The notes beneath the pieces are model-generated. The model ran no database searches and was not told where the DNA came from. It saw only the letters and a program-made list of their open reading frames with translations. From Chloroflexota bacterium (GTDB taxonomy: Bacteria > Chloroflexota > Dehalococcoidia > Lucifugimonadales > Lucifugimonadaceae), in NCBI GenBank assembly GCA_002717385.1, contig PBDR01000001.1, positions 1 to 64,000 of the forward strand: a DNA stretch of 64,000 bases. The letters are read 5' to 3'. Shown here one piece after another: positions 44,867 to 54,779 of the stretch; the stretch's first letter is position 1, and the number at the start of each line of letters is the position of its first letter. The translations under genes and the position numbers were made by a program.

Positions 44867-46441
44867 CTAGTAGTTTACAAACAATTCTACACTTTCGATA
44901 GTTAGTGAATTGTTGACCATTTTATTTCTTTTGATTGTGTTTATATCTATCGAATTAAAACCTTTTACTAAAACTCTTCTATCCAATTCAAAATCAATCC
45001 AATAATGATTGTAATTTATATGTTTTTTATTATACTCAATTTTTGTTTCATTGATTTTATATTCCAACACATCTAATGAAGTAAGATTGTTAATTAGTAT
45101 TCTGAATACAACAGACTTAATGGAATCATCAGTGGGGTCATCAGCTATATCCATTTTAAGATTTATGCTATCACCAGCCTTATCAAGTTTTGCTGGTAAT
45201 GGTGCTTTTGGAACAGTTCGCCCCAATTCACCCATCCTTGGTATTATGACTATAGGGTCATAATCTAATAAATAATGTTTATTTAGTTTAGATATTTTAT
45301 TTGGATCAGCCACTTCTTTCCATGGACCGCGATTGTAATTAGCATTTGCAGCCCATTCGATTAGGTGATTGTTCCATAGATAAATTCCATCGATTCCCGC
45401 TTGCCAGTATGTTGCAGCTGAAGCTCGACACATTTCGTCTGTAAAGACGTTGGGTTCATTGAAAAGTATTTCGGAAGAATACGGTCTAGTAAAAAAAAAC
45501 AAACCAGGATTTTGAACTAGAACTTCTGTTTGAGTGTTTTTTGTATATTCGATTAAATCTTCTACAGGAACTCTATGCATATTTCCATGAGTAACACCTG
45601 CAACTACAATATCAACTAAACCTTCGTCTATCCAAGTTTTTACATCTAACCCATAATTTTTGGATGTATCTATGATAGGAGGGACTCTTACAGAGAGCGC
45701 GAGTTTTCTATTTATTCTTTTTCCTTTTTCGTCTAATTTTGATCTAACCATCCGCATCATTTCAGTAATAAGATCAATATTTTTTTCTTCGGTTCCTTCG
45801 GGGAAAAACCTAGGGAATCTACAAAAATCCCAATCCCAGCCATCGAGGTCATATTTTTCTATGGATTCATAAACGAGCTCCATTTTGTATTCTCGTACTT
45901 CTGGGAGAGCAAAATTATAAGCAAATCTTGTAAAGGATTTCAATCTTTCAATTTTGGAAGGATTACTGGTTGGTCCTAGCAACCAGTCAGGGTTATCACG
46001 TTTTTTTGAAGAATAAGGTACTTTAGTATCAGTGATACCGTCATGGACATCATTAAACCTGGTTGAAATGAATACTTCAAGCCCCATGTCTTTTCCGGCT
46101 TCGATAAGAACTTTAGGTGGATCGTTTCCCTGTTCAATTAATGATCTGGTATTTTCGTATATCCTCCAGTCTGTAGAAGAGTTGAATATTTCCATGTCTT
46201 CACCCCACATTGGTGCGGCTGAAGTATCATGACTGTAAACATCTGAGTACCTGAGAGTTGGTGAGCCATGGAATACATCAGTCCCCAATTGCCAATAAAA
46301 TGTATCGATTTGAGTGTTTTTTAGAGGTCCCAAAGTAACTTCGATAAATTTTTCCTTTGTCATAGGGGCGTCATCTGCGGGTCCACTTAATGATTCTCCA
46401 TCGTTACATAAAACAAATCTTCTCTCTCTATTATTTTTCAA
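44867..46441 (-). CDS. Glycosyl-hydrolase-like TIM-barrel protein (GHL10/FenI-like), function unknown
   Basis: KYDLDGWDWDFCRFPRFFPEG; MVRSKLDEKGKRINRKLALSVRVPPI; WIDEGLVDIVVAGVTHG; C-terminal beta-rich region. Confidence 0.55.
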   Translation of the reverse strand: MKNNRERRFVLCNDGESLSGPADDAPMTKEKFIEVTLGPLKNTQIDTFYWQLGTDVFHGSPTLRYSDVYSHDTSAAPMWGEDMEIFNSSTDWRIYENTRSLIEQGNDPPKVLIEAGKDMGLEVFISTRFNDVHDGITDTKVPYSSKKRDNPDWLLGPTSNPSKIERLKSFTRFAYNFALPEVREYKMELVYESIEKYDLDGWDWDFCRFPRFFPEGTEEKNIDLITEMMRMVRSKLDEKGKRINRKLALSVRVPPIIDTSKNYGLDVKTWIDEGLVDIVVAGVTHGNMHRVPVEDLIEYTKNTQTEVLVQNPGLFFFTRPYSSEILFNEPNVFTDEMCRASAATYWQAGIDGIYLWNNHLIEWAANANYNRGPWKEVADPNKISKLNKHYLLDYDPIVIIPRMGELGRTVPKAPLPAKLDKAGDSINLKMDIADDPTDDSIKSVVFRILINNLTSLDVLEYKINETKIEYNKKHINYNHYWIDFELDRRVLVKGFNSIDINTIKRNKMVNNSLTIESVELFVNY

Positions 46442-47580: not shown

Positions 47581-48327
47581 TTAATATGTTCTTGCAATCC
47601 AATCTGCCCAATACTTTCTTCCATTTAATCCAATTTCGTTAAATGTTGGTGTACCGAAAGGATAATAATCTCTTTTTTCTAAATTTATTAAAGGAATCGA
47701 AGTGAATTTATAGTTCCAATTTTCGTTAGTTTTACTTAAACCACATTCGGTGAAAGAAAAATTACTTAGATCAATGGATGAAATCTCATTCATCATGATG
47801 CTGTTTTTTACCCATTGATTATCATCGTTATTTTTTATAGGGATGCTAAATTTGATAGTCTTATTTGGTTTTATTAGAATACCTTTATCTTCACATCTGT
47901 TACCTGTAAATCTAGCTCGCGTGTTCAAAAATTCTCCGCTAATATTTTCTAACTTTATTCCATCAATACCATTGTCATCATAAAAAAAATAAGTTATCGT
48001 TTTTGAGGTTTTGTTTTCAATATAACCATCTATAAGAATGTATGGTTCTGATTTTTTTTCTGAGTAAGCACTTAATCGTATATGGAATTTAGGTTGGAAA
48101 GTTATCCTTTTTATGTGTAAGGTCACATTATTTTTAGTAATAGATTCATCTAATGAAAAAGTATCTACAGTCACATATTTTTTATTAGAAGTATATTTTG
48201 TAGAAAATTCCCAAACCACTAATATTGACGCAACAACAAAAAAAATTGCACCTAATCCCATTAATGGATTTTCTATCGCCCATCCTATTCTTTTTGTGTG
48301 CTTAAACTTATTAATGAAATCTAACAC
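47581..48327 (-). CDS. Membrane-anchored hypothetical protein (one TM, beta-rich ectodomain)
   Basis: Long ORF with N-terminal TM GLGAIFFVVASILVVWEF; no family recognised. Confidence 0.6.
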   Translation of the reverse strand: MLDFINKFKHTKRIGWAIENPLMGLGAIFFVVASILVVWEFSTKYTSNKKYVTVDTFSLDESITKNNVTLHIKRITFQPKFHIRLSAYSEKKSEPYILIDGYIENKTSKTITYFFYDDNGIDGIKLENISGEFLNTRARFTGNRCEDKGILIKPNKTIKFSIPIKNNDDNQWVKNSIMMNEISSIDLSNFSFTECGLSKTNENWNYKFTSIPLINLEKRDYYPFGTPTFNEIGLNGRKYWADWIARTY

Positions 48328-48361: not shown

Positions 48362-49222
48362 TTATTCTCTTAATTGTCTTAACCTAGGATCAAGATAATC
48401 TCTTAGCCAATCTCCAAGAAAATTAAACGCCATAACGGTGAGGAAAATAGCTAGACCAGGAAAAAATGTAACCCACCATGCTGTAGCTATATAATCTCTA
48501 CCATCTGAAACCATAGCACCCCATGCGGGGGTAGGGGGTGGTACACCTACACCTAAGTAACTTAATACAGATTCAGTAAGAATTAGTGATCCGACTCTAA
48601 GACTGCCGATCACAAATAAAGTGTTGACTACACCGGGGAAAATATGTTTCCAAAGAATATACGGTGTGCTTGCGCCCGATATTCTGGCTATAGAAACGTA
48701 ATCTCTTCCTTTTAAAGCTAAAGATTCACCTCTGATTTGTCTTGCAAATGCACCCCAACTGAAAATTATCAGTAAAAGAACAATGACTGACATACTTTGA
48801 CCGAGGACAATTACTACAACAAGTGCTACAAGGATAAATGGAATTGCAAAGGTCAAATCTACAAATCTCATAAGTAATTCGTCGATTTGCCCACCTTTAT
48901 ATCCAGCTATAAGCCCTATTAATGTACCTATTAATCCTCCCAAGCTAAGAACTATCGTTGCAACCATTAAGGATATTCTTGCACCAAATATTACTCTAGC
49001 AAATACGTCTCTTCCTAAAGGATCAGCACCCAGAATGTAATAAGTGGATCCATTTTCATACCAAGAAGGAGGAAAATTTCTATAAAAAAGATCACCACCT
49101 TCACCATTGTTTGTAGTAATGAGTTCTGCAAATACAGCAGCAAAAACCAATAAACCTATTAGTATTAGAGGAACTACAGGATATACTCTTACAAATTTCC
49201 AAGAGGATTGTAATTGTTTCAT
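48362..49222 (-). CDS. Peptide/nickel-type ABC transporter permease (DppC-like)
   Basis: YILGADPLGRDVFARVIFGARISL; ARISGASTPYILWKHIFPGVVNTLFVIGSLRVGSLILTESVLSYLGVGVPPPTPAWG. Confidence 0.94.
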   Translation of the reverse strand: MKQLQSSWKFVRVYPVVPLILIGLLVFAAVFAELITTNNGEGGDLFYRNFPPSWYENGSTYYILGADPLGRDVFARVIFGARISLMVATIVLSLGGLIGTLIGLIAGYKGGQIDELLMRFVDLTFAIPFILVALVVVIVLGQSMSVIVLLLIIFSWGAFARQIRGESLALKGRDYVSIARISGASTPYILWKHIFPGVVNTLFVIGSLRVGSLILTESVLSYLGVGVPPPTPAWGAMVSDGRDYIATAWWVTFFPGLAIFLTVMAFNFLGDWLRDYLDPRLRQLRE

Positions 49223-50136
49223 TCTAATCTTATCCTCGGATCAGCCCATGAATAAAGAAGATCTACTATGAAATTTGCTATCACAAAAAAACCAGCGAAA
49301 ATCATTACTACACCTGTCATAATAGGAAAGTCATTATTAAATACAGATTGTACCGCTAGACGTCCAAGTCCTGGCCATGCAAAAACAGTTTCTGTAACTA
49401 CTGTCCCGGTAAGATATGCAGCTAAAAGTACACCAGCAAAAGTCATTGGAGCTATTAGAGCATTTCTAAATGCATGTTTCCAAACAATCCATCGGGTCGC
49501 AACTCCTTTAGCCCTTGCAAGTACTACAAACTCAGAATCTAGAACTTCTAACATTGATGATCGTACTAATCTTACGAAAGCAGCAGATGCTCCCCATCCT
49601 AGAGTTATCCCGGGTAAGATAAAATGCGTCCAATCTCCCCTTTGTGAGGTTGGAAGCCACTTCAGTTGTACTGAGAAAATTAGTATTAACATTACTCCTA
49701 ACCAAAATGCTGGTAGTGCTTGACCATATAAGGCAAACGTTCTACCTATATAATCCCACACAGAACCTCTCCTAACAGCTGATAAGACTCCTAGAGGGAA
49801 TCCAGTTATTACAGCAAAAAAAAGACCACCTAAAGTTAATTCCAATGTAGGTCTTATTCTTTCACCAATAACTGCTCTAGCAGATGTCCTATGGTACATA
49901 GATCTTCCAAAATCTCCTGTAAGTGCATTTCCAAACCACAACGTATATTGGACAATTAATGGTTTGTCCAGTCCCATTTCTCTTCCCATAGCTTCCCAGG
50001 ATTCTGTTGTTGTATATTCATCTATGTATAAATCCCTAGGATCTCCGGCAGCTCTGGACAATCCAAAGACGATGAAACTTACCAACCAAACTACGGCTAG
50101 ACCGTAAATAACTCTTCTAATAATAAACGTTCGCAT
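49219..50136 (-). CDS. Peptide/nickel-type ABC transporter permease (DppB-like)
   Basis: LVRSSMLEVLDSEFVVLARAKGVATRWIVWKHAFRNALIAPMTFAGVLLAAYLTGTVVTETVFAWPGLGRL. Confidence 0.94.
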   Translation of the reverse strand: MRTFIIRRVIYGLAVVWLVSFIVFGLSRAAGDPRDLYIDEYTTTESWEAMGREMGLDKPLIVQYTLWFGNALTGDFGRSMYHRTSARAVIGERIRPTLELTLGGLFFAVITGFPLGVLSAVRRGSVWDYIGRTFALYGQALPAFWLGVMLILIFSVQLKWLPTSQRGDWTHFILPGITLGWGASAAFVRLVRSSMLEVLDSEFVVLARAKGVATRWIVWKHAFRNALIAPMTFAGVLLAAYLTGTVVTETVFAWPGLGRLAVQSVFNNDFPIMTGVVMIFAGFFVIANFIVDLLYSWADPRIRLE

Positions 50137-50191
50137 AGATATTAAAAAAAACTACTATTTTTTCTTTCTTTTATTAATGAATGTTCGATAC

Positions 50192-50243
50192 ATATGAGAA
50201 AGGGACCGATCCGCATTCCGCATCTCCTGTCCCTTTCTCATAT
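50192..50243 (-). terminator. Strong stem-loop between SBP and permease genes
   Basis: Perfect 15-bp inverted repeat atatgagaaagggac (50192-50206) / gtccctttctcatat (50229-50243), 22-nt loop, intergenic. Confidence 0.7.
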
Positions 50244-50277
50244 TTAATTTTTACACTATTTTATAAATGCAGGAATA

Positions 50278-52122
50278 TCATTCCTTCATTTTAATAGTTT
50301 GTGGGTTACCGAAGTAAGGTATGTTACCTTGGTAAGGATTCCACTCTGCAACGGTTGGGTGCAAAGCCCAGTAAGGAGTTGATTCTACCTTGCTTATAAA
50401 GATATGCCAATCAGCAACAAATCCTGTGACTTGTTCGTTGTACGCACGTCTCTTATCTGAATCTGGTTCAGCATCGATTACAGGGTGAAGTTTTCCGAGT
50501 TCATCTGGGAATTCGAATCCACCATTCCAGCTTCCAGCTCTTGGAACCCAAGGGCCAACACCGTTTGTATCTTTCGGTGAAGCTGCTCCAGCAGTGTTCC
50601 AAGCGAAGAATACGTTAAGATCTCTTGATACTAGAGTTGGGCGTCTAGCAGAATATGCTGTCTTTTCAATTTCGACCTTACATCCGCCATCAGACCAGAA
50701 CTGAGCTACAGCTTCAGCAAACTCAGGATCAATTACAACTGTTACGTCAGGTGGTATCCAATAAGGAACTGTGAAACAGTCGGAGTATCCAGCTTCATCC
50801 AATAAAGCTTGGGCTTTATCAGGATCGTAGTCTATGAACCATTCGTCTTTCCATTCAGGCATATCAGGAGTCCATCCGAAATAAGCTAAAGGAGCGGCAG
50901 AACCTAGTCCACCGAATATAGCATTATTTAGTTTTTCTCCATCAACCATGTGTCCCATAGCTTTTCGAATTTTGTGAGCTCTTTCCATAGACTCATCGTT
51001 TCCCCATTCACCTATCCATGGGTGATCATCATCATGCATATATCCTGGCCTAGCAGCTGGGTCGTTACCTTCACCAGCAGCACCTAGATAGTCAGTTTGT
51101 GCCCAGAATTGACCGGAAGCAAACCAACCTTGACCTTTACCACCACCAATTTGTTGAGCTGAACCACCAGATTTCTCTACTGCTTCTGCAACAAATTTTG
51201 GAGGAAGATCTGACAAGTGAATTTCACCATTGACTAGAGCCGCTGTCCTTACAGATGTTTCTGGAATTTCAACGAAAGTCATACTGTCAAGATGAGGAGG
51301 GTGACGCCAGTGATCCTTTACACCAACTGATTCAATAGTGCTTCCTGCAACCCATTTTGTTGCACGGAATGGACCTGTCATATTATCAAGATCAGCCAAA
51401 GAAGCCTCTTCTCCTAATTGATCAAAAGCATCTTTACTTGTGATTGATGCAGTTTGACCATTATAGTTTGACTGCTGTCTGATCCAGTCCTTCTGACAAC
51501 CGGTGTCCTTACATTGAATAAAGACTTTACCGTCTTTTGCTTCAATTGATACAATCCAAGCTCTAAGTTGACCTGCTCTGTTGAAAGTTGATCCTTCAGC
51601 CATTGCTTCATTAAAACTGAAAGCAATGTCTTCAGCATCGACTGTGCCAAAGTCAGGGTTATGGAACTTAATACCTTCCCTGATTGTCCAAGTTAGGGTA
51701 TTTGCAGTATCATCATGTTCCCATGACTCTACCATACTTTTCTCTGGGACATCTTCGTCAACCTGAACAGGTATAGGAGCGTGTTTCATCCAAGTTAATC
51801 CCTCAGTGAAACCCCACATTTGTACACGTTCAAAACAGGAACCTGTTAGGAATCTGTTGTTAAATATCGGTGGACAAATCGCTGGGACACCTATGACTAC
51901 GTCTTGAGTAACCGTTTTTGCAGGTGCTTCCTCTTTAGCGGGAGCCTCCTTTTTTGGAGCTGATGTTGCTGTTGGCTTTGGGGCTTCCTTAGCAGGAGCT
52001 TCCTTAGCAGCAGGTGCAGGTGCTTCAGTTGTAGTTGTTTCCTCATCAGAACTACAAGCTGAAAAAGCAAAAACTGCAAACAAACCAAAGGCTATCAACC
52101 CAAGTTTAATATAGTGTTTCAT
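50278..52122 (-). CDS. ABC transporter substrate-binding protein (family 5, peptide/nickel type), lipoprotein
   Basis: Lipobox FAVFAFSACSS; Ala/Pro/Lys/Glu-rich linker; SMVESWEHDDTANTLTWTIREGIKFHNPDFGTVDAEDIAFSFNEAM; IRKAMGHMVDGEKLNNAIF. Confidence 0.93.
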   Translation of the reverse strand: MKHYIKLGLIAFGLFAVFAFSACSSDEETTTTEAPAPAAKEAPAKEAPKPTATSAPKKEAPAKEEAPAKTVTQDVVIGVPAICPPIFNNRFLTGSCFERVQMWGFTEGLTWMKHAPIPVQVDEDVPEKSMVESWEHDDTANTLTWTIREGIKFHNPDFGTVDAEDIAFSFNEAMAEGSTFNRAGQLRAWIVSIEAKDGKVFIQCKDTGCQKDWIRQQSNYNGQTASITSKDAFDQLGEEASLADLDNMTGPFRATKWVAGSTIESVGVKDHWRHPPHLDSMTFVEIPETSVRTAALVNGEIHLSDLPPKFVAEAVEKSGGSAQQIGGGKGQGWFASGQFWAQTDYLGAAGEGNDPAARPGYMHDDDHPWIGEWGNDESMERAHKIRKAMGHMVDGEKLNNAIFGGLGSAAPLAYFGWTPDMPEWKDEWFIDYDPDKAQALLDEAGYSDCFTVPYWIPPDVTVVIDPEFAEAVAQFWSDGGCKVEIEKTAYSARRPTLVSRDLNVFFAWNTAGAASPKDTNGVGPWVPRAGSWNGGFEFPDELGKLHPVIDAEPDSDKRRAYNEQVTGFVADWHIFISKVESTPYWALHPTVAEWNPYQGNIPYFGNPQTIKMKE

Positions 52123-52406: not shown

Positions 52407-52797
52407 TTATAATGTCCATCGCTTCATATATTTGTTATTGGATACGATAGAAGTAATATGTACTTCATCCAAATCTCTACCTATGTATCTTTCCTTTAAT
52501 TTCTTCTAGTCTAGTGGGATCATTATTTTGGGAGTTGATATTCCTAAAACACCGATTATTTCTTTGTTTTTAGAAAGTAAATTTACATTGACTGTAAATC
52601 TATTACACTTATTTTGAGAATTATTTTTTGCCTGGTAAATTAGTTCTCCGCCTTCTGGAAATTTTTGGTTAGTAATTAAGCTTTTTATTGTTATATCAGT
52701 TTCATGCTCAGCCTAAGCTGAATATTTATTTTTTTTGTTTGTACAAGAAAAAAGAAATAAAGCGAATAATAGTAATAGTATTAATTTATATATATTA
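52407..52797 (-). pseudogene. Degraded fifth copy of the tandem lipoprotein family
   Basis: One continuous minus frame reads KLILLLLFALFLFSCTNKKNKYSA*AEHETDITIKSLITNQKFPEGGELIYQAKNNSQNKCNRFTVNVNLLSKNKEIIGVLGISTPKIMIPLD*KKLKERYIGRDLDEVHITSIVSNN with two stops, collinear with the intact paralogues. Confidence 0.8.
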
Positions 52798-52808
52798 ATT
52801 TATATATA
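52781..52808. repeat. Two tandem copies of 14-bp ttaatttatatata
   Basis: Direct reading: ttaatttatatata ttaatttatatata, at the 5' end of the pseudogene. Confidence 0.85.
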
Positions 52809-52819
52809 TTGAACTTTTT

Positions 52820-53299
52820 TCAGGCTCTACTTTGCCAAGGGTCATAATCACATGTAAGTTCTGTTACAACAGCTGTACTTGCTTCTTTACCAATATATCC
52901 TTCTTTTAAAGTTTCTTTTCCTGATGGTGGGATTGATTTAGGTGCTTTCAATCCTAGACTAACTATTACTTTTTTTGTTTCCGAGAGAAGGTCAACATTA
53001 ATTATTAGACCACCACATTCTTTATCAGAAGTGTTTTTAATATTAATGATTACTTGACCACCTAGGGAACCCTTGGGTTTAATTATTATCTCTGTTACCT
53101 CAACTCCAGTGTCATTTTCAAATTCATTTGTAGTTTCTTGAGATATCGTTTCTTTTTTATTAGTTGAATTTTCTATTTGTTGCCCAGGAAGTGGAGGAGG
53201 TTCGCTATTCAAACATCCTGACAAAGCAACTAAACCTAAACCGAACAAAAAAAATAATATTTTTCTATCAAAAATCATTTTAAAAAAAAATTGATTCAA
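52820..53299 (-). CDS. Small lipoprotein paralogue D
   Basis: LSGCLNSEPPPLPGQQIENSTNKKETISQETTNEFENDTG..; lipobox and shared ectodomain. Confidence 0.85.
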   Translation of the reverse strand: MNQFFFKMIFDRKILFFLFGLGLVALSGCLNSEPPPLPGQQIENSTNKKETISQETTNEFENDTGVEVTEIIIKPKGSLGGQVIINIKNTSDKECGGLIINVDLLSETKKVIVSLGLKAPKSIPPSGKETLKEGYIGKEASTAVVTELTCDYDPWQSRA

Positions 53300-53314
53300 A
53301 ATTAGAAATTCAAT

Positions 53315-53752
53315 TTACGACCAAAGTGATGACATGTTATCACAATTAATACTCTTGATTTCCGCTTTAACAGCACCTTTACCTATAAATAAACCTTTAA
53401 TCTCCATTTCTTCTCCAGGCCCAACTAGTGTTGGAGAATTAACTCCCACACTGACTATTAATTCATCTGTATCGGATAACATATCAACTTGAATAACTAA
53501 ACCACATTCTTCGTCAGATTCATTTTGGACTAGGAAAACAATATCACCACCTAAAGTTCCTTTGGGTTTAATTGTTATATCTTTTACGACAATTCCAGTA
53601 TCGTTTTCGAATTCAATTTTAGCTTCCTGCGAAATATCCTCTTTTTTATCAGTTGAATTTTCTATTTGTTGCCCAGGAGGTGGAGGAGGTTCACTATTCA
53701 AACAACCCGAAACAAAAAAAATTAATGTAAAGACTAGAACTGTAAACTTCAT
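53315..53752 (-). CDS. Small lipoprotein paralogue C
   Basis: VSGCLNSEPPPPPGQQIENSTDKKEDISQEAKIEFENDTG.. Confidence 0.85.
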   Translation of the reverse strand: MKFTVLVFTLIFFVSGCLNSEPPPPPGQQIENSTDKKEDISQEAKIEFENDTGIVVKDITIKPKGTLGGDIVFLVQNESDEECGLVIQVDMLSDTDELIVSVGVNSPTLVGPGEEMEIKGLFIGKGAVKAEIKSINCDNMSSLWS

Positions 53753-53789
53753 ATAAACTTTCTAAATCTCATTTTTTTAATCTATTTCA

Positions 53790-54266
53790 TTATGGACAAT
53801 AGGCTTGTGCCATGGTACATGCCGCATCACATGTAATTTCAGTTACAACCACTTCCTTTGCACCTTTACCAATAAACATTTCTTTTAAAGTTTGTTTTCC
53901 AGATGGGGGGATACCTCCTCTAGAATTATATTTCAATCCCATACTAGCTACAACACTGTTCGATTCTGTAAGAACGTCAACATTAATGGCAAGACCTGCA
54001 CAGGCTTCTGATGCAGAATTTGTAACATTTATAATTACATCACCCCCAAGAGTACCTTTAGGTGCAATAGTTATATCATCTATAACAATTCCAGTGTCGT
54101 TCACAAATTCATTTGTAGTTTCTTGACTAATAGATTCTTTGGTTTCAGAAGATGTATCTATTTGTTGCCCAGGAGGTGGAGGAGGTTCACTATTCAAACA
54201 TCCAGAAAAAACAATTAAACCAAACAAAAAAAATGTTATTTTCATATTAAAACTCTCCTTAGACAA
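53790..54266 (-). CDS. Small lipoprotein paralogue B
   Basis: FSGCLNSEPPPPPGQQIDTSSETKESISQETTNEFVNDTG.. Confidence 0.85.
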   Translation of the reverse strand: MSKESFNMKITFFLFGLIVFSGCLNSEPPPPPGQQIDTSSETKESISQETTNEFVNDTGIVIDDITIAPKGTLGGDVIINVTNSASEACAGLAINVDVLTESNSVVASMGLKYNSRGGIPPSGKQTLKEMFIGKGAKEVVVTEITCDAACTMAQAYCP

Positions 54267-54779
54267 TTATCTACCGCCTTTATCTTTTTTCCCACCAGCA
54301 TCTCCAGAAGTGTCTCCTAAAATTGATGCATCACATGTAAGTTCTGTTACAACTACTTCAGTTGCTCCTTTACCAATATAACCTTCCTTCAAAGTTTCAC
54401 TTCCAGATGCAGGTACAGTTTTCGGAGATTTCAATCCCAAATTAACTATTACATTCCCTGTATCAGAAACTAGATCAACATTAATAATTAGACCAGTACA
54501 ATCTTCTGAAGAAGTATTTTTAACATTTATAATCACATCACCACCTAAAGATCCTTTTGGTTTAATTGTTAAATCTTCTAATACAATTCCAGTGTTATTC
54601 ACAAATTCATTTGTGCTTTCTTGGATAATGGCTTCTTTTTGTTGATCAGTGGTGGTATCGATTTGTTGAGGAGGTGGAGGTGGTTCACTATTTAGACATC
54701 CGAAAAAAAAGGTAAGAATAATTACAATACTCAAAGTAAGTTTTAGGCGATTAAATATTTTATTGATAATAATGAACAT
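54267..54779 (-). CDS. Small lipoprotein paralogue A
   Basis: FFGCLNSEPPPPPQQIDTTTDQQKEAIIQESTNEFVNNTG.. Confidence 0.85.
   Translation of the reverse strand: MFIIINKIFNRLKLTLSIVIILTFFFGCLNSEPPPPPQQIDTTTDQQKEAIIQESTNEFVNNTGIVLEDLTIKPKGSLGGDVIINVKNTSSEDCTGLIINVDLVSDTGNVIVNLGLKSPKTVPASGSETLKEGYIGKGATEVVVTELTCDASILGDTSGDAGGKKDKGGR

Follow-up and report, generated by a model that had tools for sequence, protein, structure and literature searches.

Peptides and, in some cases, sugars are bound by the family-5 solute-binding proteins of ABC importers of the Dpp/Opp/Nik type, and some binding proteins of this type reportedly take sugars rather than peptides (Nanavati et al. 2006, as cited in PMC3850815). 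We know of no family-5 importer that has been described with tandem Ig-like lipoproteins. FxLYD lipoproteins (NF038353) are another point of comparison; the term "FxLYD" was not found in the literature searched. Cj0090 from Campylobacter jejuni is encoded in the Cj0089-0091 lipoprotein operon, where the role in adherence has been shown for Cj0091, not for Cj0090 (PMC3100323).

In the window, that is, the whole stretch of 64,000 nt analyzed here, four consecutive genes on the minus strand at 52820–54779 encode paralogous lipoproteins. Both the coordinates and the paralogy, as proposed in the first-pass annotation, are confirmed; in the genome search, the first protein as a query retrieves the other three with E-values of 7e-39 to 8e-53, far beyond chance. 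The genes encode paralogue 1 (W4, 170 aa, 54267–54779; from genome search and alignment), paralogue 2 (W3, 151 aa, 53790–54245), with an ATG start, AAGGAG ahead of it, and an extra C-terminal cysteine pair common to this protein and the copies on contigs C17 and C28, paralogue 3 (W2, 145 aa, 53315–53752), and paralogue 4 (W1, 152 aa, 52820–53278), also starting with ATG. The gaps between them are 21, 37, and 36 bp. Promoter-like sites are no more frequent than in shuffled sequences (20 vs. 18.7), so that operon structure is suggested by the spacing only.

Each array gene encodes a hydrophobic signal segment, a Gly-Cys lipobox, a Pro-rich tether, and an ectodomain of approximately 100 residues. 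The tether is CLNSEPPPPPGQQI, with small variations between copies; the linker noted previously is indeed present, its letters being corrected to CLNSEPPPPPQQI in W4 and CLNSEPPPLPGQQI in W1. Judging by the sequence, all eight intact copies found in the genome (see below) have the signal peptide and lipobox with cysteine at +1 expected of bacterial lipoproteins. The Gly-Cys lipobox is invariant (8/8, the C17 copy in this survey being cut by the contig end), and Phe at position –3, present in two copies, is atypical. Identity to W4 across these eight copies is 43–60%, with 34 alignment columns invariant. Two ectodomain cysteines already described as conserved, C94 and C149 in W4 numbering, are found in 8/8 copies and in both homologues from another genus.

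The array of four is real but incomplete as originally described, since a decayed fifth copy and four intact dispersed copies had been missed. The fifth copy (52407–52799, minus strand), directly downstream of the array, retains a lipobox FLFSC and an ectodomain in one frame, with two in-frame TAG codons and no evident ATG. TAG ends 9 of 49 long ORFs and is an ordinary stop, hence recoding was dismissed and the copy reads as a pseudogene. The dispersed copies are located in contigs C17 (one, at the contig end), C20 (two), and C28 (one), which makes at least eight intact copies in the genome searched (1.38 Mb, 33 contigs, 86% complete). They adjoin varied genes, with no transporter in common. 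At the C20 locus (L009, 5159–8802), genes of an MFS transporter and a zinc dehydrogenase in opposite orientations are flanked by two lipoprotein copies. In C17 (L010, 3033–5771), a formate-dehydrogenase-like gene runs through one in-frame TGA, NCSRT-U-HAPTVAG, which we take to be the usual selenocysteine position in formate-dehydrogenase-type enzymes, and its product is a candidate selenoprotein.

No window copy has a match above the cut-off in Pfam or NCBIfam, and the HMM search suggested in the first-pass annotation matched no characterized family, in agreement with its view that the family and its function are unrecognized. YmgD (E 0.08–0.18), RNase Z, and hexonate epimerase were far under the cut-off and were dismissed; designed Armadillo proteins (E 0.6), the sole PDB matches in the profile sequence search, were regarded as chance matches. 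No convincing relative came from PHROGs, phages, plasmids, or viral contigs, which leaves a phage or plasmid origin without support; nor did scanning named genomes with the alignment of the lipoproteins yield a relative.

The two AlphaFold2 models, one for a window copy (pLDDT 86) and one for a homologue in the other genus (pLDDT 93), have six strands in the same order, the two sharing most alignment rows and being not fully independent; the ectodomain is confidently predicted to be a six-strand Ig/FN3-like sandwich. Together with the signal peptide and lipobox, these models point to a compact extracytoplasmic beta sandwich, as in FxLYD. Foldseek finds Ig/FN3-like sandwiches at E of about 1e-3, none of which stands out as a convincing relative; the matches are IrmA, Cj0090, DUF1425, SadB, YajI, and domains of carbohydrate-active enzymes. 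With the strands designated A–F, the two cysteines lie at the start of C and the end of F, that is, at the same pole of the predicted fold. This topology fits a disulfide, and the C94–C149 bond suggested earlier is likely.

The homologues from the second carrier genome, G003, score 23.8 and 17.2 bits with the FxLYD model NF038353 (cut-off 23), and no window copy matches it. As only a G003 homologue exceeds the cut-off while the window copies fall below, we describe the latter as relatives and not members of FxLYD, the distant kinship being supported indirectly. The FxLYD/Ig-like module proposed in the first-pass annotation therefore holds as to the predicted fold and the G003 homologue, but not as to FxLYD assignment of the window copies. 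These proteins constitute a lipoprotein family that is restricted to one lineage, has apparently not been described before, and is distantly related to FxLYD-like Ig modules.

The family is rare. With the domain profile it is identified in 2 of 250 genomes of the order, and the same two are the only carriers among 393 genomes sampled from the class; hence the survey of copy number does not show clade-wide housekeeping. No copy is found in either of two congeneric genomes (74 and 71% complete). The second carrier, G003, is from a different genus within the same taxonomic family; its two copies are arranged in tandem and share 28–35% identity with the window lipoproteins.

In both carriers, the lipoproteins are found near the same importer. 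The window encodes, on the minus strand, a family-5 solute-binding protein (SBP_bac_5, 50278–52122) with its own lipobox, two ABC importer permeases identified by domain matches (BPD_transp_1, 49219–50136 and 48362–49222), and a glycosyl hydrolase-like GHL10 protein (44867–46441), single-copy both here and in G003; 697 bp, including the pseudogene, separate the array from the gene of the solute-binding protein. In G003, the tandem lies in a conserved neighborhood between an adjoining GHL10 homologue (51% identity to that in the window) and an orthologous solute-binding protein (63%) approximately 1.6 kb away, after which come the permeases (72 and 68%). The solute-binding protein, at the threshold used, is present in the same 2 of 250 genomes of the order as the lipoproteins. 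A DUF3179 gene on the opposite strand separates it from the lipoproteins in G003, so there the lipoproteins and the importer do not form one operon. Association with one particular importer, as expected for an importer accessory, is thus conserved in 2/2 carrier genomes, and this linkage could reflect one shared inheritance or transfer.

Several further features of this region were observed. The solute-binding protein and permease genes (48362–52122) have no ATPase gene alongside, and the same is seen for three successive solute-binding protein/permease sets in G003 (L138, 4261–19207). The G+C content of the solute-binding protein gene (50278–52122) is 43%, compared to 32% in the window and 33% in the array. 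Directly downstream of the permeases, 47581–48327 (minus strand) encodes a protein of 248 aa that has a single hydrophobic segment and an ectodomain that looks beta-rich; Pfam and NCBIfam yield no match for it.

We observe a difference between the loops of the predicted domain. In the eight own copies, mean entropy is 0.19 and 0.18 bits in the AB (GxLGG) and EF (GKG) loops, and 1.37 and 1.51 bits in the BC and DE loops; this difference is reached in 0 of 20000 shuffles of those loop positions, the loop pairs having been picked after the alignment was seen. The CD loop is variable (1.57 bits), though it is at the conserved pole. Conservation of Gly24, Leu26, Gly27, Gly28, Gly84, and Lys85 of the domain, complete or almost complete, extends to the other genus. 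These data are suggestive of a near-invariant pole and an opposite variable one, and the conserved glycines may be purely structural.

As for the host, the nearest full-length relatives of a neighboring Gfo/Idh protein are found in metagenome genomes of Chloroflexota and Dehalococcoidia, and five genes of mandelate-racemase-type enolases are present across the window and the C20 locus. An expansion of such enolases has been described in SAR202 group I (PMC10444878), and we infer a SAR202-type bacterium. Cultured members of SAR202 appear monoderm, carry no genes for peptidoglycan synthesis, and have an S-layer-like coat (PMC10444878); by analogy, the lipoproteins would be situated between the membrane and the coat.

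Given the conserved linkage to the importer, our preferred, though tentative, reading is that these proteins are Ig-like modules, tethered to the membrane, that act as accessories in extracytoplasmic nutrient capture. Of the roles considered in the first-pass annotation, ligand capture is also the best fit to this linkage; since two genomes provide the basis for the role, the interest of the family is modest. The lipid anchor would hold the proteins at the outer face of the cytoplasmic membrane, with the Pro-rich tether carrying one FxLYD-like Ig/FN3 sandwich, probably stapled by the disulfide. The near-invariant pole with the GxLGG and GKG loops may dock on a common membrane partner, plausibly the neighboring solute-binding protein, which has a lipobox as well, or the permeases, and the variable pole (BC and DE loops, tail) would match the individual copies to ligands or partners of their own. 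The set may have been shaped by duplication, dispersal to other loci, and loss, as in the fifth copy. With GHL10 and sugar-type enzymes close by, saccharides are at most a plausible substrate of the importer. A more specific version, in which several Ig-like lipoproteins with a shared docking pole and varied loops widen the capture of a family-5 ABC importer in a peptidoglycan-free cell, further copies being recruited to other uptake or catabolic loci, seems quite improbable.

The main rival to nutrient capture is a structural role in the envelope, with tethered Ig-like modules anchoring, spacing, or bracing the S-layer or surface proteins of a cell that lacks peptidoglycan; several copies would then provide dosage and partner variety, and the linkage to the importer would be incidental. 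The envelope of cultured SAR202 (PMC10444878), the long Pro-rich tether kept across copies, the absence of a common neighbor of the dispersed copies, and the presence of envelope lipoproteins (SadB, Cj0090, DUF1425, YajI) among weak fold matches are all consistent with it. However, an envelope component would be expected to be widespread in the clade, whereas the family is present in 2 of 250 genomes from the order and absent from two same-genus genomes, and the conservation of linkage to one particular importer is not accounted for. We consider the structural role rather unlikely.

The history of the copies bears on two other explanations. The four array genes do not form a single clade (AU test, p 1.3e-6), so that local tandem expansion of the four is rejected: W2 has its nearest relative in a C20 copy and not in its array neighbors (support 96/99 in the protein tree and 100/100 in the DNA tree), and W3 groups with the C17 and C28 copies (96.5/96, DNA). 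Pairwise dN/dS of the ectodomain, the check suggested in the first-pass annotation, is 0.17–0.66 with no pair above 1, these values being averages within one genome in which a few selected sites could stay hidden. The values point to constraint. Diversification of the surface, in which variation among copies would serve evasion of phages, grazers, or other binders, or adhesion to different surfaces, would agree with multiple paralogues, variable BC, CD, and DE loops and tails, and the patchy distribution, but these dN/dS values argue against it, as do sister copies located outside the array, with no recent local expansion seen, and no phase-variation feature stood out on inspection; such diversification is very unlikely. 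In particular, the antigenic diversification initially offered as one possible meaning of the array is not supported, given dN/dS below 1, array members that are not closest relatives, and one near-invariant pole. Least probable of the explanations considered is a selfish or near-neutral residue, i.e., a duplicated family on its way out and partly kept by chance. One copy has already decayed, the distribution is narrow, and several dN/dS values are as high as 0.5–0.66; yet the tether, the cysteines, and two loops are kept despite high synonymous divergence, the importer linkage is retained in another genus, and eight intact copies are present in a genome of 1.38 Mb.

SAR202-type Chloroflexota occur ocean-wide and have expanded paralogues of catabolic enzymes (PMC10444878). 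If the lipoprotein family has expanded beside uptake genes, this pattern of paralogue expansion would reach the cell surface, and nutrient capture, if true, would provide a testable handle on the way in which slow-growing SAR202-type cells take up dissolved organic matter. With a purely structural role, the family would be a new one of modest importance.

Compared with known systems, the family is similar to FxLYD lipoproteins in being a small extracytoplasmic beta sandwich with the pattern "V.N.S ... V.L....G ... L.PG....", although hhalign aligns the FxLYD domains of relatives with it over 65 columns at a probability of only 39%. Unlike FxLYD, the window copies have no match to the model, possess two conserved cysteines, and belong to a multicopy family; moreover, FxLYD matches in relatives are mostly within proteins of 500–950 aa. 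IrmA, DUF1425, SadB, and YajI are the best overall fold matches (TM 0.63–0.71 for IrmA), but with Foldseek E of about 1e-3 or worse and 8–17% identity, kinship in sequence is not established. Cj0090, too, is a lipoprotein of small size that folds as an Ig-like sandwich (4gio; Foldseek E-values of 7e-3 and 3e-2); the similarity is in fold only (12–15% identity), and the phylum and the envelope are different. Family-5 ABC importers are represented at the locus itself, as the genes neighboring the array form such an importer.
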